From IMG/VR virus record IMGVR_UViG_3300028581_001382, positions 89,874 through 153,873 of that record: 64,000 nt of DNA; one strand, written 5' to 3'. Shown here piece by piece: positions 47,218 through 52,653 of this stretch. Position 1 is the first letter of the stretch. Every line of letters starts with the position of its first letter. This DNA is from a virus. The position numbers and the translations under genes are program-made. The notes beneath the pieces were generated by a model, which saw nothing but the letters and a program-made list of their open reading frames with translations, did not search any database and was not told where the DNA came from.

Positions 47218-48318
47218 TTATAAATTTGGTAGTTGATCATAATCAAGTTCAGACGACATAATACCAATTACGTAGTTAGTTGACTCATTTTCTTGCAAGG
47301 CCGTCTGTTTGCTGGATGTTGAGACATGTTTGTTGAACCATGGAATAGGTGTGCTGCGTGGTGCTGCGGTTTGATATTTGATACCAATGTCTTTGAGAGC
47401 ACCAACTGCTGTGTAGTCCACAAAATCTTTGAGAATGTTTGCATTGAGACCAATTACTGGACCCATCTTGAACAAATGCTCAGCCCAGGCTTTTTCTTCA
47501 CGGATCACATCCTGATACAAGGCATACACTTCTGCTTCGCAAGCGTCTTTGACCGCAGCAAATCGGTTGTCTTCTTTGATAACTTGGTTGATAAGATATG
47601 CAGTCCATCCTTTGTGCAGCAATTCGTCTTGCAGAATCAATCCAATAATGTTGCCATTGCCAATGAAGATTTTGTTCTCTACCATGGCCAAGCTAGTGGC
47701 AAACGATACCATGAATCGGAATGCTTCCAGTGCATAACTGGCATGCAATGCCATCCAAATTGTTCGAACATGTTCACGTTCTTCCACCGGTTGCCCTAGT
47801 TCTTTTGCACAGTTGATTCTGTGTAAGTCATCATAATATCGTCCTACACTTGATGCCATGTCTACAATTTCTGTGGTGTCATGAATGGTATTGAAAACAT
47901 CTTTAGGCACGTTATAGATATTACGAATGATATGGCTGTAACTCTTTGAATGGATATTTGTTTCAAAGAATCCCCAGTTATACATCAATGCTTCTACTTC
48001 GGGCAAGCTGCATACCGGCGTGAATACCTGTGTAGGTCCACGTCCTTGCAAACTGTCCAATGCAGTCTGCCGCAGTAAATTGCTAGTAAAGATATGTTTG
48101 ACTGCATCACTGGCATCTTTAAAGTCATTGGCATCTTTGCTGAGACTGATCTCTTCAGGTTGCCAGAAGAAGCCACGTGCAGTGGCTTCAAAGTCTGCAA
48201 TCTTTTTATACTTGACTTCTTCAAAGCGTTGAATAGTAACTGGACCTGCTGGGTCCAGAAACATCTTGCGATTCAAATAATCTGTCTTTGTGTTTAGGTT
48301 ATATTGTGCTTGGCTCAT
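47218..48318 (-). CDS. nrdB: ribonucleotide reductase small subunit NrdB
   Basis: This 366-residue protein is the di-iron tyrosyl-radical subunit. It has the ALDSLQGR segment (ligand Asp), ETNIHSKSYSHIIRNI (His and the radical Tyr), and DELLH (second Glu-x-x-His). The first carboxylate-His spacing is E-x-x-x-H, one residue longer than E. coli ETIH. The C-terminal YDQLPNL end binds NrdA. It overlaps the NrdA C-part by 4 nt. Confidence 0.95.
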   Translation of the reverse strand: MSQAQYNLNTKTDYLNRKMFLDPAGPVTIQRFEEVKYKKIADFEATARGFFWQPEEISLSKDANDFKDASDAVKHIFTSNLLRQTALDSLQGRGPTQVFTPVCSLPEVEALMYNWGFFETNIHSKSYSHIIRNIYNVPKDVFNTIHDTTEIVDMASSVGRYYDDLHRINCAKELGQPVEEREHVRTIWMALHASYALEAFRFMVSFATSLAMVENKIFIGNGNIIGLILQDELLHKGWTAYLINQVIKEDNRFAAVKDACEAEVYALYQDVIREEKAWAEHLFKMGPVIGLNANILKDFVDYTAVGALKDIGIKYQTAAPRSTPIPWFNKHVSTSSKQTALQENESTNYVIGIMSSELDYDQLPNL

Positions 48319-50147
48319 AATTTACAACTTTCGCAATCTTCTTCTTCATCAAAATCTATATGTTCTAACATCGGCGGTGCGATTTCAGCATCAGCTTTGC
48401 TACCCTGTTTATTCACGAGGCTATAATAGAAGGTCTTGAGGCCCCACATATGTGCTTGCATCAAGTTCTTTGCTATCAATGTAGTTGGAACTTTACGGTC
48501 AGCGTAGTGTGCAGGGTTATAGAATGTGTTAGTACTGATACTTTGATCTACATAAGCCGCTAATACTGCTGCGGTTTTTAAGTAACCATCACAGTCTTTT
48601 TGTTCCCACATCAATTGATACTTGTTCTTTAGTTTGTGATATTCTGGAACAACTTGTGTAAAGCTACCTGCTTTACTTTCTTTAACACTAATCAAACTCA
48701 TGGGCATCTCAATGCCATTTGTACTGTTAATAACTACACTACTTGATTCTACTGGAGCAATAGCCATTTGTGTAGCATTACGTACACCGTGTTCTTTCAT
48801 GTTAACACGTAATGTTTCCCAATCTAGTTCTGGAGCAAAGTCAGTTAATTGATTAACACCTTTGGCTCTTAGTTCCCAGGGGAATACTCCTTGACCATAT
48901 CTTGTCTTGTCGCTACCTTCACACTTGCCTCTTTCTTTGGCAAGTTCTACACTTGCTTCTGTTAGATAGAATGCTAGATGTTCTGCCCAAATTTTAACTT
49001 CAGCTAATGCATCTTTCTCACCGTACTTGAGACTACGCTTTGCATGCCAATATGCTAAGTTAGTTACACCAATGCCCAATGGACGAATCTCATCGTTGCT
49101 CAGTTTAGACTGAATGGAGAGAAAGTCTTGATAGTCAAGAATGTTATTGAGGCTACGATGCAATATGCGACAAGCACGGCGCATATCTTCGGGATTTCTA
49201 AACGCACCCCAATTTATACTTCCAAGTGTACAGAGGGCTATCCTGCCGGTATCGTCATCTAATCGCTTAAAACTTTTTGTCGGAAGTAGGATCTCACAAC
49301 AGAGGTTGCTTTGATAGATGGTATGATACTCTGGATCAAACGGTCCTTGTTTCATTACATTATCTATGAACACAAGATAGATACGTCCAGTGTCAGTGCG
49401 CTCTTTCAGTATGCCTGACTTGAATACTTCTTCTGCACTCATAGTCTTAGTACGCAGGTCTTTGCGCTTTTCATATTTAACATAAAGTTCTTCAAATCTT
49501 TCTGTATTTTGATAGAACGCTTCGTACAAATCAGGAACTTCATTTGGATCAAAGAATGTTATTTGTTCTTTGTTTTTGAATCTTCTCCAGAAGAAAGCAC
49601 TAAGCACAACCCCATAATCCATATGACGGACTCGGGTTTCTTCTGTTCCTTGGTTGTTCTTAAGGACAATAAGATCATCAAACTGATGATGCCAAATGGG
49701 ATAAAAAACTGTAGCACTTGCATTACGAATACCTCCTTGCGAATTGTGTGTCAATACCATTGGACCATTGCTACTAGAGGAAGCAAAAAAGGTATGAGTA
49801 TCTTCTACTGTAATATCAATATAGCCAGTATCGTTTTGCTGTTCAAAATCAGAAACTAGCAAACGAGTAAATCCTGTTTCAGTGAGAACAAGATGATCGT
49901 TAGTAAGTTCCTTAGGTTTTTTCTGTAAGAACGATCCCGAGTCGCTCCATACCATTATGGGGTGATTTACGGAGCAGTTTAACACAACACCGTTTTCAAA
50001 CTGCAAACGAACTTGATCTTCTGTTTTTACAATAGTATCCCACTTGTTAGTTACTGCTTTAAACAATATATCTCCTTGCTCATTTTTTGTTTTAACTTTC
50101 ATCCCTATCACAAGGTCTTTAATCTGAATCTTTTTAGTTTTTACCAT
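48315..50147 (-). CDS. nrdA: Intein C-part fused to NrdA C-terminal part
   Basis: This 610-residue protein has 135 residues of intein C-part (block B as SVNHPIM, block F DITVEDTHTFFAS, block G ending VLTHN) and then the NrdA C-extein from SQGGIRNAS. The extein has NLCCE (active-site Cys, Asn/Glu), ALCTLGSINWG (Cys) and the C-terminal CESCKL redox pair, so the enzyme is complete apart from the N-part. By trans-splicing with 51273-52226 it should rebuild a 773-residue large subunit. Confidence 0.92.
   Translation of the reverse strand: MVKTKKIQIKDLVIGMKVKTKNEQGDILFKAVTNKWDTIVKTEDQVRLQFENGVVLNCSVNHPIMVWSDSGSFLQKKPKELTNDHLVLTETGFTRLLVSDFEQQNDTGYIDITVEDTHTFFASSSSNGPMVLTHNSQGGIRNASATVFYPIWHHQFDDLIVLKNNQGTEETRVRHMDYGVVLSAFFWRRFKNKEQITFFDPNEVPDLYEAFYQNTERFEELYVKYEKRKDLRTKTMSAEEVFKSGILKERTDTGRIYLVFIDNVMKQGPFDPEYHTIYQSNLCCEILLPTKSFKRLDDDTGRIALCTLGSINWGAFRNPEDMRRACRILHRSLNNILDYQDFLSIQSKLSNDEIRPLGIGVTNLAYWHAKRSLKYGEKDALAEVKIWAEHLAFYLTEASVELAKERGKCEGSDKTRYGQGVFPWELRAKGVNQLTDFAPELDWETLRVNMKEHGVRNATQMAIAPVESSSVVINSTNGIEMPMSLISVKESKAGSFTQVVPEYHKLKNKYQLMWEQKDCDGYLKTAAVLAAYVDQSISTNTFYNPAHYADRKVPTTLIAKNLMQAHMWGLKTFYYSLVNKQGSKADAEIAPPMLEHIDFDEEEDCESCKL
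49743..50147 (-). other. split intein C-part (135 residues)
   Basis: Blocks B, F and G with the final His-Asn (VLTHN), followed by Ser as the +1 extein residue. Block A is not here but in 51273-52226. Confidence 0.85.
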
Positions 50148-51243
50148 TTTCGTGCTCTTTTCTTGTTATTGTTTCAATATCATTAAATTTTGCAGACATG
50201 TCATATTGTTTGACTTTCAGTACTGTTTTTCCTCTAGTTGCTCTATAATATTGATCTAATAATTCTTTTGATTTAAAGAATTTACTGTCTACCTTATAGA
50301 AAACTTTAGTGGTCTGATTAGCATAATCGTTAATATTAATTTGATATTCTTCTTTGTCTATTATAACAGTTTTTCTTTTAGAAATTGAATAAACTACCAC
50401 ATTTCCGGTGTTATGATGTTTATATAAATCCCTATCATAATTTTCTTTTTTTACTAATTTCTTCTCTCCTGTTACCCTGTCTGTAACTGGAATTAAACCA
50501 AATGTATTTCCAATGTACCGACCATTTGAATTGTTGAAATCTTCTTGTGTTATAGTTACTCTAGTGTTAGTGGTTGTGTCGTGTGCAACCACTTTCCCTT
50601 TAGTAAGTCCCACATATCTACTGTCCGCTTGAAATACTGATTTTGGAATCCTACATGATTGTCCAGTCACTGTATCCAATGCTAAGACATAATTCTTAAA
50701 TTCAGTAGAATGAATGCTAGGATCAAAATCTGAAGTATATATCTTTTTAATTCCGGTTTCTGTTCTTATATTCATCATACCTTTTGAAATATGTAGATGT
50801 TTTCCAGTAGCAAATTCTTCCACACTTACCCGATACGTATTTCCACTAGAATCTTTGCATAATACAGACCCTGCTCCGCAGTTTGAGCCACCTGCAGTTA
50901 GAGAGTTTATAAAAATAGAGTTCTTACCAACTTGATGCTTTTGATGGAATATTTTTTCTGCCGTAAACGCATCACTCCTGGTAGTGAAGTATTCAATTCT
51001 ATACTCAAATAAGTATGGCATCTTTTTTAGTTTTTCTTTAAAATCAACTACGGTTGAACTAGTAAAGTATTTTACCAACAAATCGTGCTTATTACAGCCT
51101 TCAACCCCACGAGAACCGGAATAAAACTTTCCAGTCTCTGTATCTTTAATAGTATAGCAGTAGTAAGCCGAATTTGATAGCATATTAGTTTGTGCTCCGT
51201 TGTATGATTCTAGTAAATAATTTAGCATTTCGTATACCCCCAT
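50134..51243 (-). CDS. GIY-YIG-like homing endonuclease within split nrdA
   Basis: This 369-residue protein has a nuclease core at residues about 26-100: YYCYTIKDTETGKFYSGSR, a KYFTSSTVVDF segment, and AEKIFHQKHQVG with the catalytic Glu. This is the form of phage GIY-YIG enzymes. The rest has repeated DTVTG/DTTTN-type strands, probably DNA-binding. It lies between the two halves of NrdA. Its ATG follows TAAATAA by 2 nt and its end overlaps the C-part start by 14 nt. Confidence 0.8.
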   Translation of the reverse strand: MGVYEMLNYLLESYNGAQTNMLSNSAYYCYTIKDTETGKFYSGSRGVEGCNKHDLLVKYFTSSTVVDFKEKLKKMPYLFEYRIEYFTTRSDAFTAEKIFHQKHQVGKNSIFINSLTAGGSNCGAGSVLCKDSSGNTYRVSVEEFATGKHLHISKGMMNIRTETGIKKIYTSDFDPSIHSTEFKNYVLALDTVTGQSCRIPKSVFQADSRYVGLTKGKVVAHDTTTNTRVTITQEDFNNSNGRYIGNTFGLIPVTDRVTGEKKLVKKENYDRDLYKHHNTGNVVVYSISKRKTVIIDKEEYQININDYANQTTKVFYKVDSKFFKSKELLDQYYRATRGKTVLKVKQYDMSAKFNDIETITRKEHENGKN

Positions 51244-51244
51244 T

Positions 51245-51252
51245 ATTATTTA
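51245..51252 (-). promoter_or_regulatory. late promoter TAAATAA, 2 nt before ATG
   Basis: ATAAATAA then TA and ATG of the endonuclease; suggests the endonuclease is expressed independently of NrdA. Confidence 0.55.
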
Positions 51253-51272
51253 TGCTTGTGTGCGAAAAACTA

Positions 51273-52226
51273 TTATTTAGCAATAGAATCATCCTCATCT
51301 AGTACTTCTATCCAAGTATCCGGAGTTACACAGCAAGACCTTAAATCTCCAAACCACTTCTTTAAAAATGGTATCATGCCGGTATGCATGATCTCACCAC
51401 CGCGGATGGGTGAGCCTAGTGGTCGTAGTCGTCCAATCTCTAACCCAATGCCAGCACGTTTGCTGGCATACTTGGCCATCATTTCCCCACTAGCGAATAT
51501 ACTATCGAGATCATCATCGCTGCGAATAAGAACGCAGCTAGAGAATTGTTTAGTAGGAGTTCCAAGACCAGCGAGAACAGGAGTAGCAAGAGTAAATAAG
51601 CCATCACTTGCAGCATTGTAATATTCCTTTATATAGCGCATTCTTGCTGAGTTTGGTTCTTCCGAGTGAAAAACTGTAGCCGCTGCAACCATGTAACGAA
51701 CTTGGGGAGTTTCATAAGTTTCCTTTGTGGCACGATTCTTCACAAGATATTTTTCAATCAATTGCTCGATAGCGGCATAGCCATATTGTTCGTCCTTGGA
51801 ATGATCTATCATGTCCTGCATACGGTTCCAATCAGATTCGTCGTACCATTCCAATAGTTCAGGAGTGTACAAGCCCGTGGCTACGTTTTTCTTTACAATC
51901 TCATACAAGTGGGGAGGCTCATAAGAGCCATATACATCTTTTCTCAACATGCTAAGACGTTGCTTACCTGCCACATATTGATAGTTAGTGTGCCCAACAT
52001 CTGGATTATGTTCTATATCGATCAAGTCCACAATGGCTCGTAGTGTGATACCATCAATTTCTTTGGTAGTGATGCCATCATAAAAGTGCATCTGGGCTTT
52101 GATTTCTACCATGCTTTGACTTACATCTGCAATGCCTGCACATACTTTGGCAATTTGGGTTTGCCACTTTTCTAGGCTTAATTGTTCTTTTCTTCCGTTA
52201 CGTTTAATAACTGTGATTTGTGTCAT
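51273..52226 (-). CDS. nrdA: NrdA N-terminal part fused to intein N-part
   Basis: This 317-residue protein is the first 298 residues of class I NrdA, from the ATP-cone (IKRNGRKEQLSLEKW) to the GDLRSC segment, with FSSCVLI active-site Cys. It ends with a 19-residue intein N-part CVTPDTWIEVLDEDDSIAK. Cys1 and the DTWIEV block A are intact. The split is right after block A, as in atypically split inteins. Partner: 48315-50147. Confidence 0.92.
   Translation of the reverse strand: MTQITVIKRNGRKEQLSLEKWQTQIAKVCAGIADVSQSMVEIKAQMHFYDGITTKEIDGITLRAIVDLIDIEHNPDVGHTNYQYVAGKQRLSMLRKDVYGSYEPPHLYEIVKKNVATGLYTPELLEWYDESDWNRMQDMIDHSKDEQYGYAAIEQLIEKYLVKNRATKETYETPQVRYMVAAATVFHSEEPNSARMRYIKEYYNAASDGLFTLATPVLAGLGTPTKQFSSCVLIRSDDDLDSIFASGEMMAKYASKRAGIGLEIGRLRPLGSPIRGGEIMHTGMIPFLKKWFGDLRSCCVTPDTWIEVLDEDDSIAK
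51276..51332 (-). other. split intein N-part (19 residues)
   Basis: CVTPDTWIEV then an acidic tail and stop. Very short compared with usual N-inteins of about 100 residues. Confidence 0.85.
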
Positions 52227-52230
52227 ATAC

Positions 52231-52653
52231 TCAATATAGTTGTTGTTTTACATCGCTCTGCGTGATGTGATGTCTATTCTGCTGTAGGTTGATATTTAAC
52301 CCTGGAGACTGGTCCCAATTCAATATATATTTCCCATTCTCTACTAGGACTAAATTGCCCCGATCTGATTCGATCAGCATAGCGTCTTGAAGATCGTAAC
52401 GATCCAGCACAGTAATAGTATACAGGATTCCTAGCCCGCGAGCAAGATCACAATAGATGTTGTCGCTCAAAAGTTGCCAGGGATCTGGCCAATCCGCTTG
52501 ATCGTCCCAGTGTAAATGATAAGCTCGCCAGGGAGTTTGTTGCCACCAGGAATTGATCTCCTCTAGGGCATCCGGCTTAGGCAGTGTGCAAACGCGATTT
52601 CGTAAAACGTTCCACGCTGCCAAACGTTGTTCAAAGGTTGAACACCACATCAA
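52231..52653 (-). CDS. conserved phage protein, 140 residues
   Basis: A 140-residue Trp-rich protein (INSWWQQTPWRAYHLHWDD, WPDPWQLLSD, CDLARGLGILYTITVLD). Function unknown. It overlaps the tailspike gene by ATGA, so it may be a chaperone or structural accessory to it. Confidence 0.5.
   Translation of the reverse strand: MMWCSTFEQRLAAWNVLRNRVCTLPKPDALEEINSWWQQTPWRAYHLHWDDQADWPDPWQLLSDNIYCDLARGLGILYTITVLDRYDLQDAMLIESDRGNLVLVENGKYILNWDQSPGLNINLQQNRHHITQSDVKQQLY

Follow-up and report, generated by a model that had tools for sequence, protein, structure and literature searches.

A probable mobile, atypically split intein with an endonuclease gene between its halves in the nrdA of freshwater phages

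Organization of the nrdA locus

In a freshwater phage (IMG/VR virus record IMGVR_UViG_3300028581_001382), nrdA, the gene for the alpha subunit of ribonucleotide reductase (RNR), is carried by two open reading frames (ORFs) on the minus strand, with a homing endonuclease gene (HEG) between them. The window, that is, the whole stretch of DNA analyzed, is the last 64 kb of this 153,873-bp record. The arrangement is very probably that of a mobile, atypically split intein, in which the two NrdA halves are joined by trans-splicing and a probable GIY-YIG endonuclease spreads the whole unit. A fractured nrdA with an endonuclease gene between the halves of an atypically split intein had been proposed in an initial annotation of this DNA and fits all of the evidence described here, in which related loci are designated by L numbers.

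The upstream ORF, nrdA-N (52226-51273, 317 aa), encodes NrdA residues 1-298, ending in GDLRSC, followed by CVTPDTWIEVLDEDDSIAK and a stop codon. The downstream ORF, nrdA-C (50147-48315, 610 aa), begins with 135 intein residues ending in VLTHN and continues with SQGGIRNAS and the rest of the 475 NrdA residues that it contributes. The intervening ORF (51243-50134, 369 codons) shares its last 14 nt with nrdA-C, so that translation of the C part may be coupled to that of the HEG. An internal ATG at 51228, which would give a product of 364 aa, is likely the true HEG start, as it is preceded by a Shine-Dalgarno sequence and as four relatives (L091, L093, L094, and L095) have a TGA stop immediately after the first ATG. 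The features of the locus are as follows.

51333-52226, minus: NrdA N-extein, residues 1-298, comprising the ATP cone, the all-alpha region, and the start of the barrel (Pfam ATP-cone, Ribonuc_red_lgN, and Ribonuc_red_lgC; boundary from 74 empty-site relatives)
51276-51332, minus: N-intein, 19 residues, CVTPDTWIEVLDEDDSIAK, with block A, kept across the intein family; stop codon at 51273-51275
51223-51272, minus: hairpin, supported by covariation and folding, whose 3' arm lies over the HEG Shine-Dalgarno sequence and ATG; weakened here by two mismatches
51244-51254, minus: T4-late-type box CATAAATAATA in the hairpin loop, a consensus match only
51223-51244, minus: HEG start region, a putative operator resembling nrdA 49718-49739 (16/22 match)
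50134-51228, minus: HEG, probable GIY-YIG type, 364 aa (frame open from 51243)
49743-50147, minus: C-intein, 135 residues, with N2 and blocks B, F, and G (family alignment), overlapping the HEG end by 14 nt
49718-49739, minus: C-extein stretch CAAGGAGGTATTCGTAATGCAA, +3 to +25 from the insertion, a candidate HEG recognition half-site resembling the HEG start region in 9/9 loci tested
48315-49742, minus: NrdA C-extein, 475 residues, with +1 Ser (Pfam Ribonuc_red_lgC; QSNLCCE, IALCTLG, and C-terminal CESC motifs present)
49743-51332, minus: whole mobile unit, N-intein, HEG, and C-intein, 1,590 bp
47218-48318, minus: nrdB, the intact small-subunit gene adjoining nrdA (Pfam Ribonuc_red_sm)

The insertion site and the intein family

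The boundaries of the unit are fixed by relatives that lack it. Among 80 NrdA relatives collected by C-extein similarity, 74 had sufficient sequence, and in these 74 phage contigs residue 298 is joined straight to the Ser of SQGG; as the loci were chosen by similarity, this number is not a frequency. Because the empty sites are exact, the 1,590-bp unit can be recognized as an insertion with correctly placed splice junctions, and a chance arrangement is excluded. Together with the ORFs, the empty sites bear out the initial reading of both parts, namely that GDLRSC is followed by a 19-residue N-intein and that the exact continuation of NrdA resumes after VLTHN. The same relatives and those described below include both uninterrupted and continuous-intein forms of nrdA, the two kinds for which a search had been proposed.

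Relatives of the C-intein were found at 49 loci in a first scan, to which a profile scan added 12, and cultured phages that bear the intein include Thanatos-1/2, KARL-1, SUMAE, and VPALA. The splicing residues named at the outset are all present in the window and recur across the family: Cys1 in every N-part read, the block-B His, the block-F His (replaced by Asn in L122 and Thanatos only), the terminal His-Asn, and Ser or Cys at +1. In Thanatos-2 and KARL-1 the intein lies upstream by one codon and is followed by a +1 Cys. The split point falls between block A and N2, leaving an N-intein of 19 residues here and of 12-25 residues in relatives; its shortness is thus unusual, as first noted, without being unique, with 15 aa in PolB16 OarG (PMC10189870) and 12 in KARL-1. 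Against Pfam Intein_splicing the window C ORF reaches 24.8 bits, under the 35.8 cut-off, as expected with block A missing from the C-part, and the continuous relative L118 lies above the Pfam Hint and PT-HINT cut-offs. The N-part tails have a mean charge of -3.6 and the C-part starts of +2.8, which fits charge-assisted docking of the two halves.

The intein was not met in a pattern scan of 84,980 bacterial and archaeal genomes, which is no proof of its absence there, and no account of this NrdA intein family was found in the literature searched. Divergence of intein and extein is out of step among relatives: L125 has a C-extein 78% identical and a C-intein 52% identical, and in L116 these values are 42-44% and 59%, respectively.

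Phage RNR genes commonly hold group I introns with HEGs (PMC3653736), and removal of such an intron at the RNA level would make the likeness to an intein fortuitous. This has almost no likelihood, given that Rfam yields no match at E <= 1 in 48000-52600, that intein motifs flank the insert on both sides, and that relatives have continuous inteins at the same site.

Movement of the unit and selection

Comparisons among phages that carry the split intein make evident a recent horizontal movement of the 1,590-bp unit. Between L087 and L089 it is 98.9% identical, whereas the nrdA flanks are ~77% identical (66-94% in successive 50-bp steps); for L097 and L104 the identity of the unit is 95.5%, as against 66-90% on the N-extein side. 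Synonymous divergence within the unit is 0.02-0.03 for L087-L088 and 0.02-0.21 across the L087-L088 and L097-L104 comparisons, and the exteins are saturated. Such near identity in phages with divergent nrdA flanks argues that the unit moves as one element, and near-identical copies in unlike phages indicate that it still jumps. The first 50 bp of N-extein next to the insertion show 90-92% identity in both pairs (L087-L089 and L097-L104), which fits a short co-conversion tract.

As judged from the ratio of nonsynonymous to synonymous divergence (dN/dS), the C-intein and the HEG are both under purifying selection. For the C-intein most comparisons give a ratio of ~0.05-0.15, and the usable HEG comparisons give ~0.09-0.17; a single higher C-intein value, 0.39 (L087-L088), rests on a handful of changes. 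HEG ratios of 1.7-2.0 involving L091 were set aside as artefacts caused by a stop codon in frame ahead of the true start of that gene.

These constraints bear on whether the NrdA pieces are spliced at all. An active NrdA encoded by genes in pieces is documented for phage Aeh1 (PMC2988022), and a further break in relatives, site D below, resembles the Aeh1 type; on this model the pieces would be non-covalent subunits and the intein parts inert tails. That is decidedly unlikely for the present locus, where the splicing residues and the C-intein are under purifying selection even after loss of the HEG, as an inert 135-residue tail would not be. Retention of the intein after HEG loss argues instead that splicing is needed. 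Decay of nrdA through multiple interruptions has been proposed for Campylobacter phages (PMC3653736), and pieces that make no enzyme would leave the phage dependent on that of its host. This explanation is highly improbable here, since the frames are open, the catalytic motifs and nrdB are intact, and dN/dS is low.

Split, continuous, and endonuclease-less forms

Four forms are present on a tree built with 41 distinct intein sequences of this insertion site, two phages having it one codon upstream: continuous inteins, split inteins with the window-type HEG, split inteins with another HEG, and split inteins without one. The window-type HEG occurs in 29 contigs, in one of them only partially and in two at ~40% identity. 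L107, L108, L115, L121, L123, and L170 have other large ORFs. The two that were scanned, those of L107 and L115, match PHROG homing-endonuclease profiles, L115 with a weak Vsr match as well, and the ORFs of L107, L115, L121, L123, and L170, which occupy the same split point, are of another kind, possibly a Vsr-like family; among Pfam and PHROG profiles, no Vsr-like match was found for the window HEG. L084 has an HNH/NUMOD3 ORF.

Four loci (L092, L109, L110, and L111) are split and lack most or all of the HEG. Because they keep sequence of the HEG 3' end before the C-part, they can be placed as descendants of HEG-bearing forms, with the intein still intact. Continuous inteins are present in L086, L090, L112, L118, L122, L171, L183, L192, L195, and L197. 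A Met marks the joint in L086, L112, L171, and L195, as would follow from renewed fusion of separate halves, and several continuous forms accordingly look like re-fusions. Continuous L171 is sister to split L113 with support of 99/98, a single clade of continuous forms is rejected (approximately unbiased test, p 9e-5), and at least 10 switches between the split and continuous states are required on the tree. The reading suggested by these results is one of repeated fission and re-fusion. The direction of change is firm only at loci with HEG remnants or on the starred branch, and with inner support low in the main clade, no order of gains and losses is claimed beyond starred branches.

The start of the endonuclease gene

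The TAAATAA box that the initial annotation had assigned to the HEG is present, and its setting can now be refined: CATAAATAATA forms the loop of an inverted repeat, the 3' arm of which lies over the Shine-Dalgarno sequence and ATG of the HEG. Six pairs of this hairpin have changed on both sides, a level of covariation equalled in 0/500 shuffles, and slid controls fail. One sequence, L116, is off by one column in the hairpin alignment and was retained, which lowers the score. Folding z-scores range from -4.9 to -6.5 in six loci and are -1.7 in L116.

The 22-nt HEG start region also resembles the insertion site. In 8/9 loci its best match within its own nrdA lies at exactly +3 from the insertion, and in the remaining locus the match at that position ranks second. 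Across the 64-kb window the nrdA stretch 49718-49739 is matched better only by itself, with the HEG start region scoring 16/22 and 38 other gene starts scoring <= 13. The start region is thus a candidate operator resembling the homing site.

Endonuclease identity and the proposed mechanism

The product of the HEG is probably a GIY-YIG homing endonuclease, as judged from its predicted structure and conserved residues. In an AlphaFold2 model, residues 20-98 form an N domain of beta-beta-alpha-beta-alpha topology, after which small beta modules are repeated; most Foldseek matches in a viral library are to GIY-YIG or homing endonucleases, with probabilities of 0.95-1.00 for many of them; and the HEG alignment conserves CYT, YSG, Glu91, and Asn108, fitting GIY-YIG.

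In the proposed mechanism, nrdA yields two polypeptides, and the 19-residue N-intein would dock onto the 135-residue C-intein, whereupon trans-splicing would join the two halves of NrdA into a single functional protein. During co-infection, the probable GIY-YIG endonuclease would cut an intein-less nrdA near the GDLRSC/SQGG codons, and the whole 1,590-bp unit would then be copied into the cut gene. On read-through transcripts, the hairpin over the HEG start would hold down its translation, which transcripts from the T4-late-type promoter in the loop may release; the endonuclease may also repress itself by binding a site that resembles its target. Late-promoter use and autorepression, like trans-splicing and cleavage themselves, are inferred.

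Several observations weigh against parts of this account. Neither Pfam nor PHROG yields a family match for the HEG (PF01541, none at E <= 0.1), confidence in its model is middling (predicted local distance difference test (pLDDT) 71.7, predicted template modelling score (pTM) 0.34), and the best GIY-YIG structural match in the PDB, UvrC, is weak (E 4.7); a PDB sequence search gave nothing useful. The original GIY-YIG assignment therefore stands on the predicted fold and the conserved Y/YSG/E/N residues, with profile matches lacking. With PF01541 unmatched and the PDB match weak, the split intein could be correctly recognized and the endonuclease belong to another nuclease fold, which is unlikely in view of the N-domain topology, the conserved residues, and the prevailing viral Foldseek matches. 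An AlphaFold2 model of a continuous-intein relative (pLDDT 49) was too poor and was discarded. The hairpin of the window itself is weak (z -1.7, with two mismatches), though well kept in relatives, and the likeness of operator and target is helped by a shared GGxGG...ATG pattern; the loci are, moreover, related to one another.

Relation to known systems

In the fractured genes of Dassa et al. 2009, most inteins reportedly have their break at the canonical endonuclease site and are accompanied by a Vsr-like (EDxHD) HEG. Unlike those, the intein here is split after block A and has a GIY-YIG-like HEG, so that the initial comparison with a Dassa-type arrangement applies to the position of the HEG between split intein halves and not to its family. 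The fractured genes with split inteins of Dassa et al., as cited in PMC3653736, likewise have a broken host gene, NrdA among the hosts, with a free-standing HEG between the intein halves. A close parallel is the AceL NrdHF split intein (PMC7891396), in which a fractured RNR gene in phage-like DNA has a GIY-YIG gene between its halves. That gene encodes a beta subunit, and its intein is of class 3 with a canonical 98/48 split, whereas here the alpha subunit is interrupted by an intein with class 1 residues and a 19/135 split.

Atypically split inteins such as AceL-TerL (N-part 25 aa), GOS-TerL, and PolB16 OarG (15 aa) share the short N-intein, the near-N-terminal split, and the long C-intein (PMC11766414, PMC10189870). 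They differ in host protein and site, and here the intein forms a mobile unit with its own HEG; PolB16 uses Ser1/Ser+1, as opposed to Cys1/Ser+1. Acinetobacter phage KARL-1 (MH713599, L134:1728-5447) also has a broken nrdA with an HEG, a 12-residue N-intein, and a C-intein of 43% identity; its insertion is one codon upstream with +1 Cys, and its HEG is of a different type (DUF7487, PHROG homing-endonuclease profiles). The KARL-1 annotation gives two large-subunit pieces and a hypothetical protein only.

The operator of I-TevI of T4 resembles its homing site, and its ribosome-binding site is hidden on early transcripts (PMC2988022). The present HEG, from sequence only, shows a comparable combination of late promoter, hairpin hiding the ribosome-binding site, and operator resembling the homing site, but lies inside a split intein and not a group I intron. 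Aeh1 nrdA is similarly broken by an HEG, mobE, with function presumed kept (PMC2988022); its pieces, in contrast, assemble into active enzyme without splicing. Natural N-inteins as short as 15 aa have thus been described before, and so, separately, have split inteins accompanied by GIY-YIG genes. What is new is their combination in NrdA, together with movement as one unit, the proposed regulation, and the series of split and continuous forms.

Natural atypically split inteins are few and are prized for protein labelling. To these the present family adds several dozen different sequences whose N-parts span 12-25 residues, and it includes both continuous relatives and a member from a phage in culture. 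A single locus here also shows how split inteins originate, spread, shed the endonuclease, and become continuous again, a matter so far argued from single examples and now testable.

Further breaks of nrdA in relatives

In L097:5983-8918 and its sister contigs L099, L100, L101, and L102, nrdA is broken at further sites, as read from the nucleotide data alone. At site B (SQGGIRNA|SATV), L097 and four sisters have a second split intein with another ORF between its halves, leaving a middle protein of 204 residues whose contribution to NrdA would be no more than eight residues, SQGGIRNA; in the L127 group the intein at the corresponding site is continuous. A canonically split intein follows QSNLC, beside the catalytic cysteine motif, in L096:1121-3276, L107:6001-8394, and L112:1-3269, with an HNH-like ORF between the halves in L096 and L112. 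Site D (~LDDDTGR|IALC), in L101:7476-10274, L104:5983-8043, L091:5980-8688, and L086:132-3061, has no recognizable intein. The N piece of L101 and L104 has a basic tail and their C piece starts acidic, like the Aeh1 genes in pieces. In L098:2576-5209, PVES|SSVV is the site of another canonically split intein, whose halves flank a 414-aa ORF.

There is about an even chance that the unit belongs, as a single module, to a wider nrdA-breaking system in freshwater phages. Four proteins, each translated on its own, would then build the NrdA of the close relatives L097, L099, and L101 by two trans-splicings in succession, one at site A and one at site B, with only SQGGIRNA coming from the middle protein, and by non-covalent assembly at a further break, with repeated switching between split and continuous states and exchange of the gap endonuclease between families. 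If such multi-piece relatives work, a central metabolic enzyme would be built by tandem natural trans-splicing.

Elsewhere in the window, PF01541 was met in the genome search only at 1502-1618, and a second GIY-YIG homing endonuclease gene lies at 1490-2011 on the plus strand (PF01541 above cut-off; PHROG homing endonuclease).

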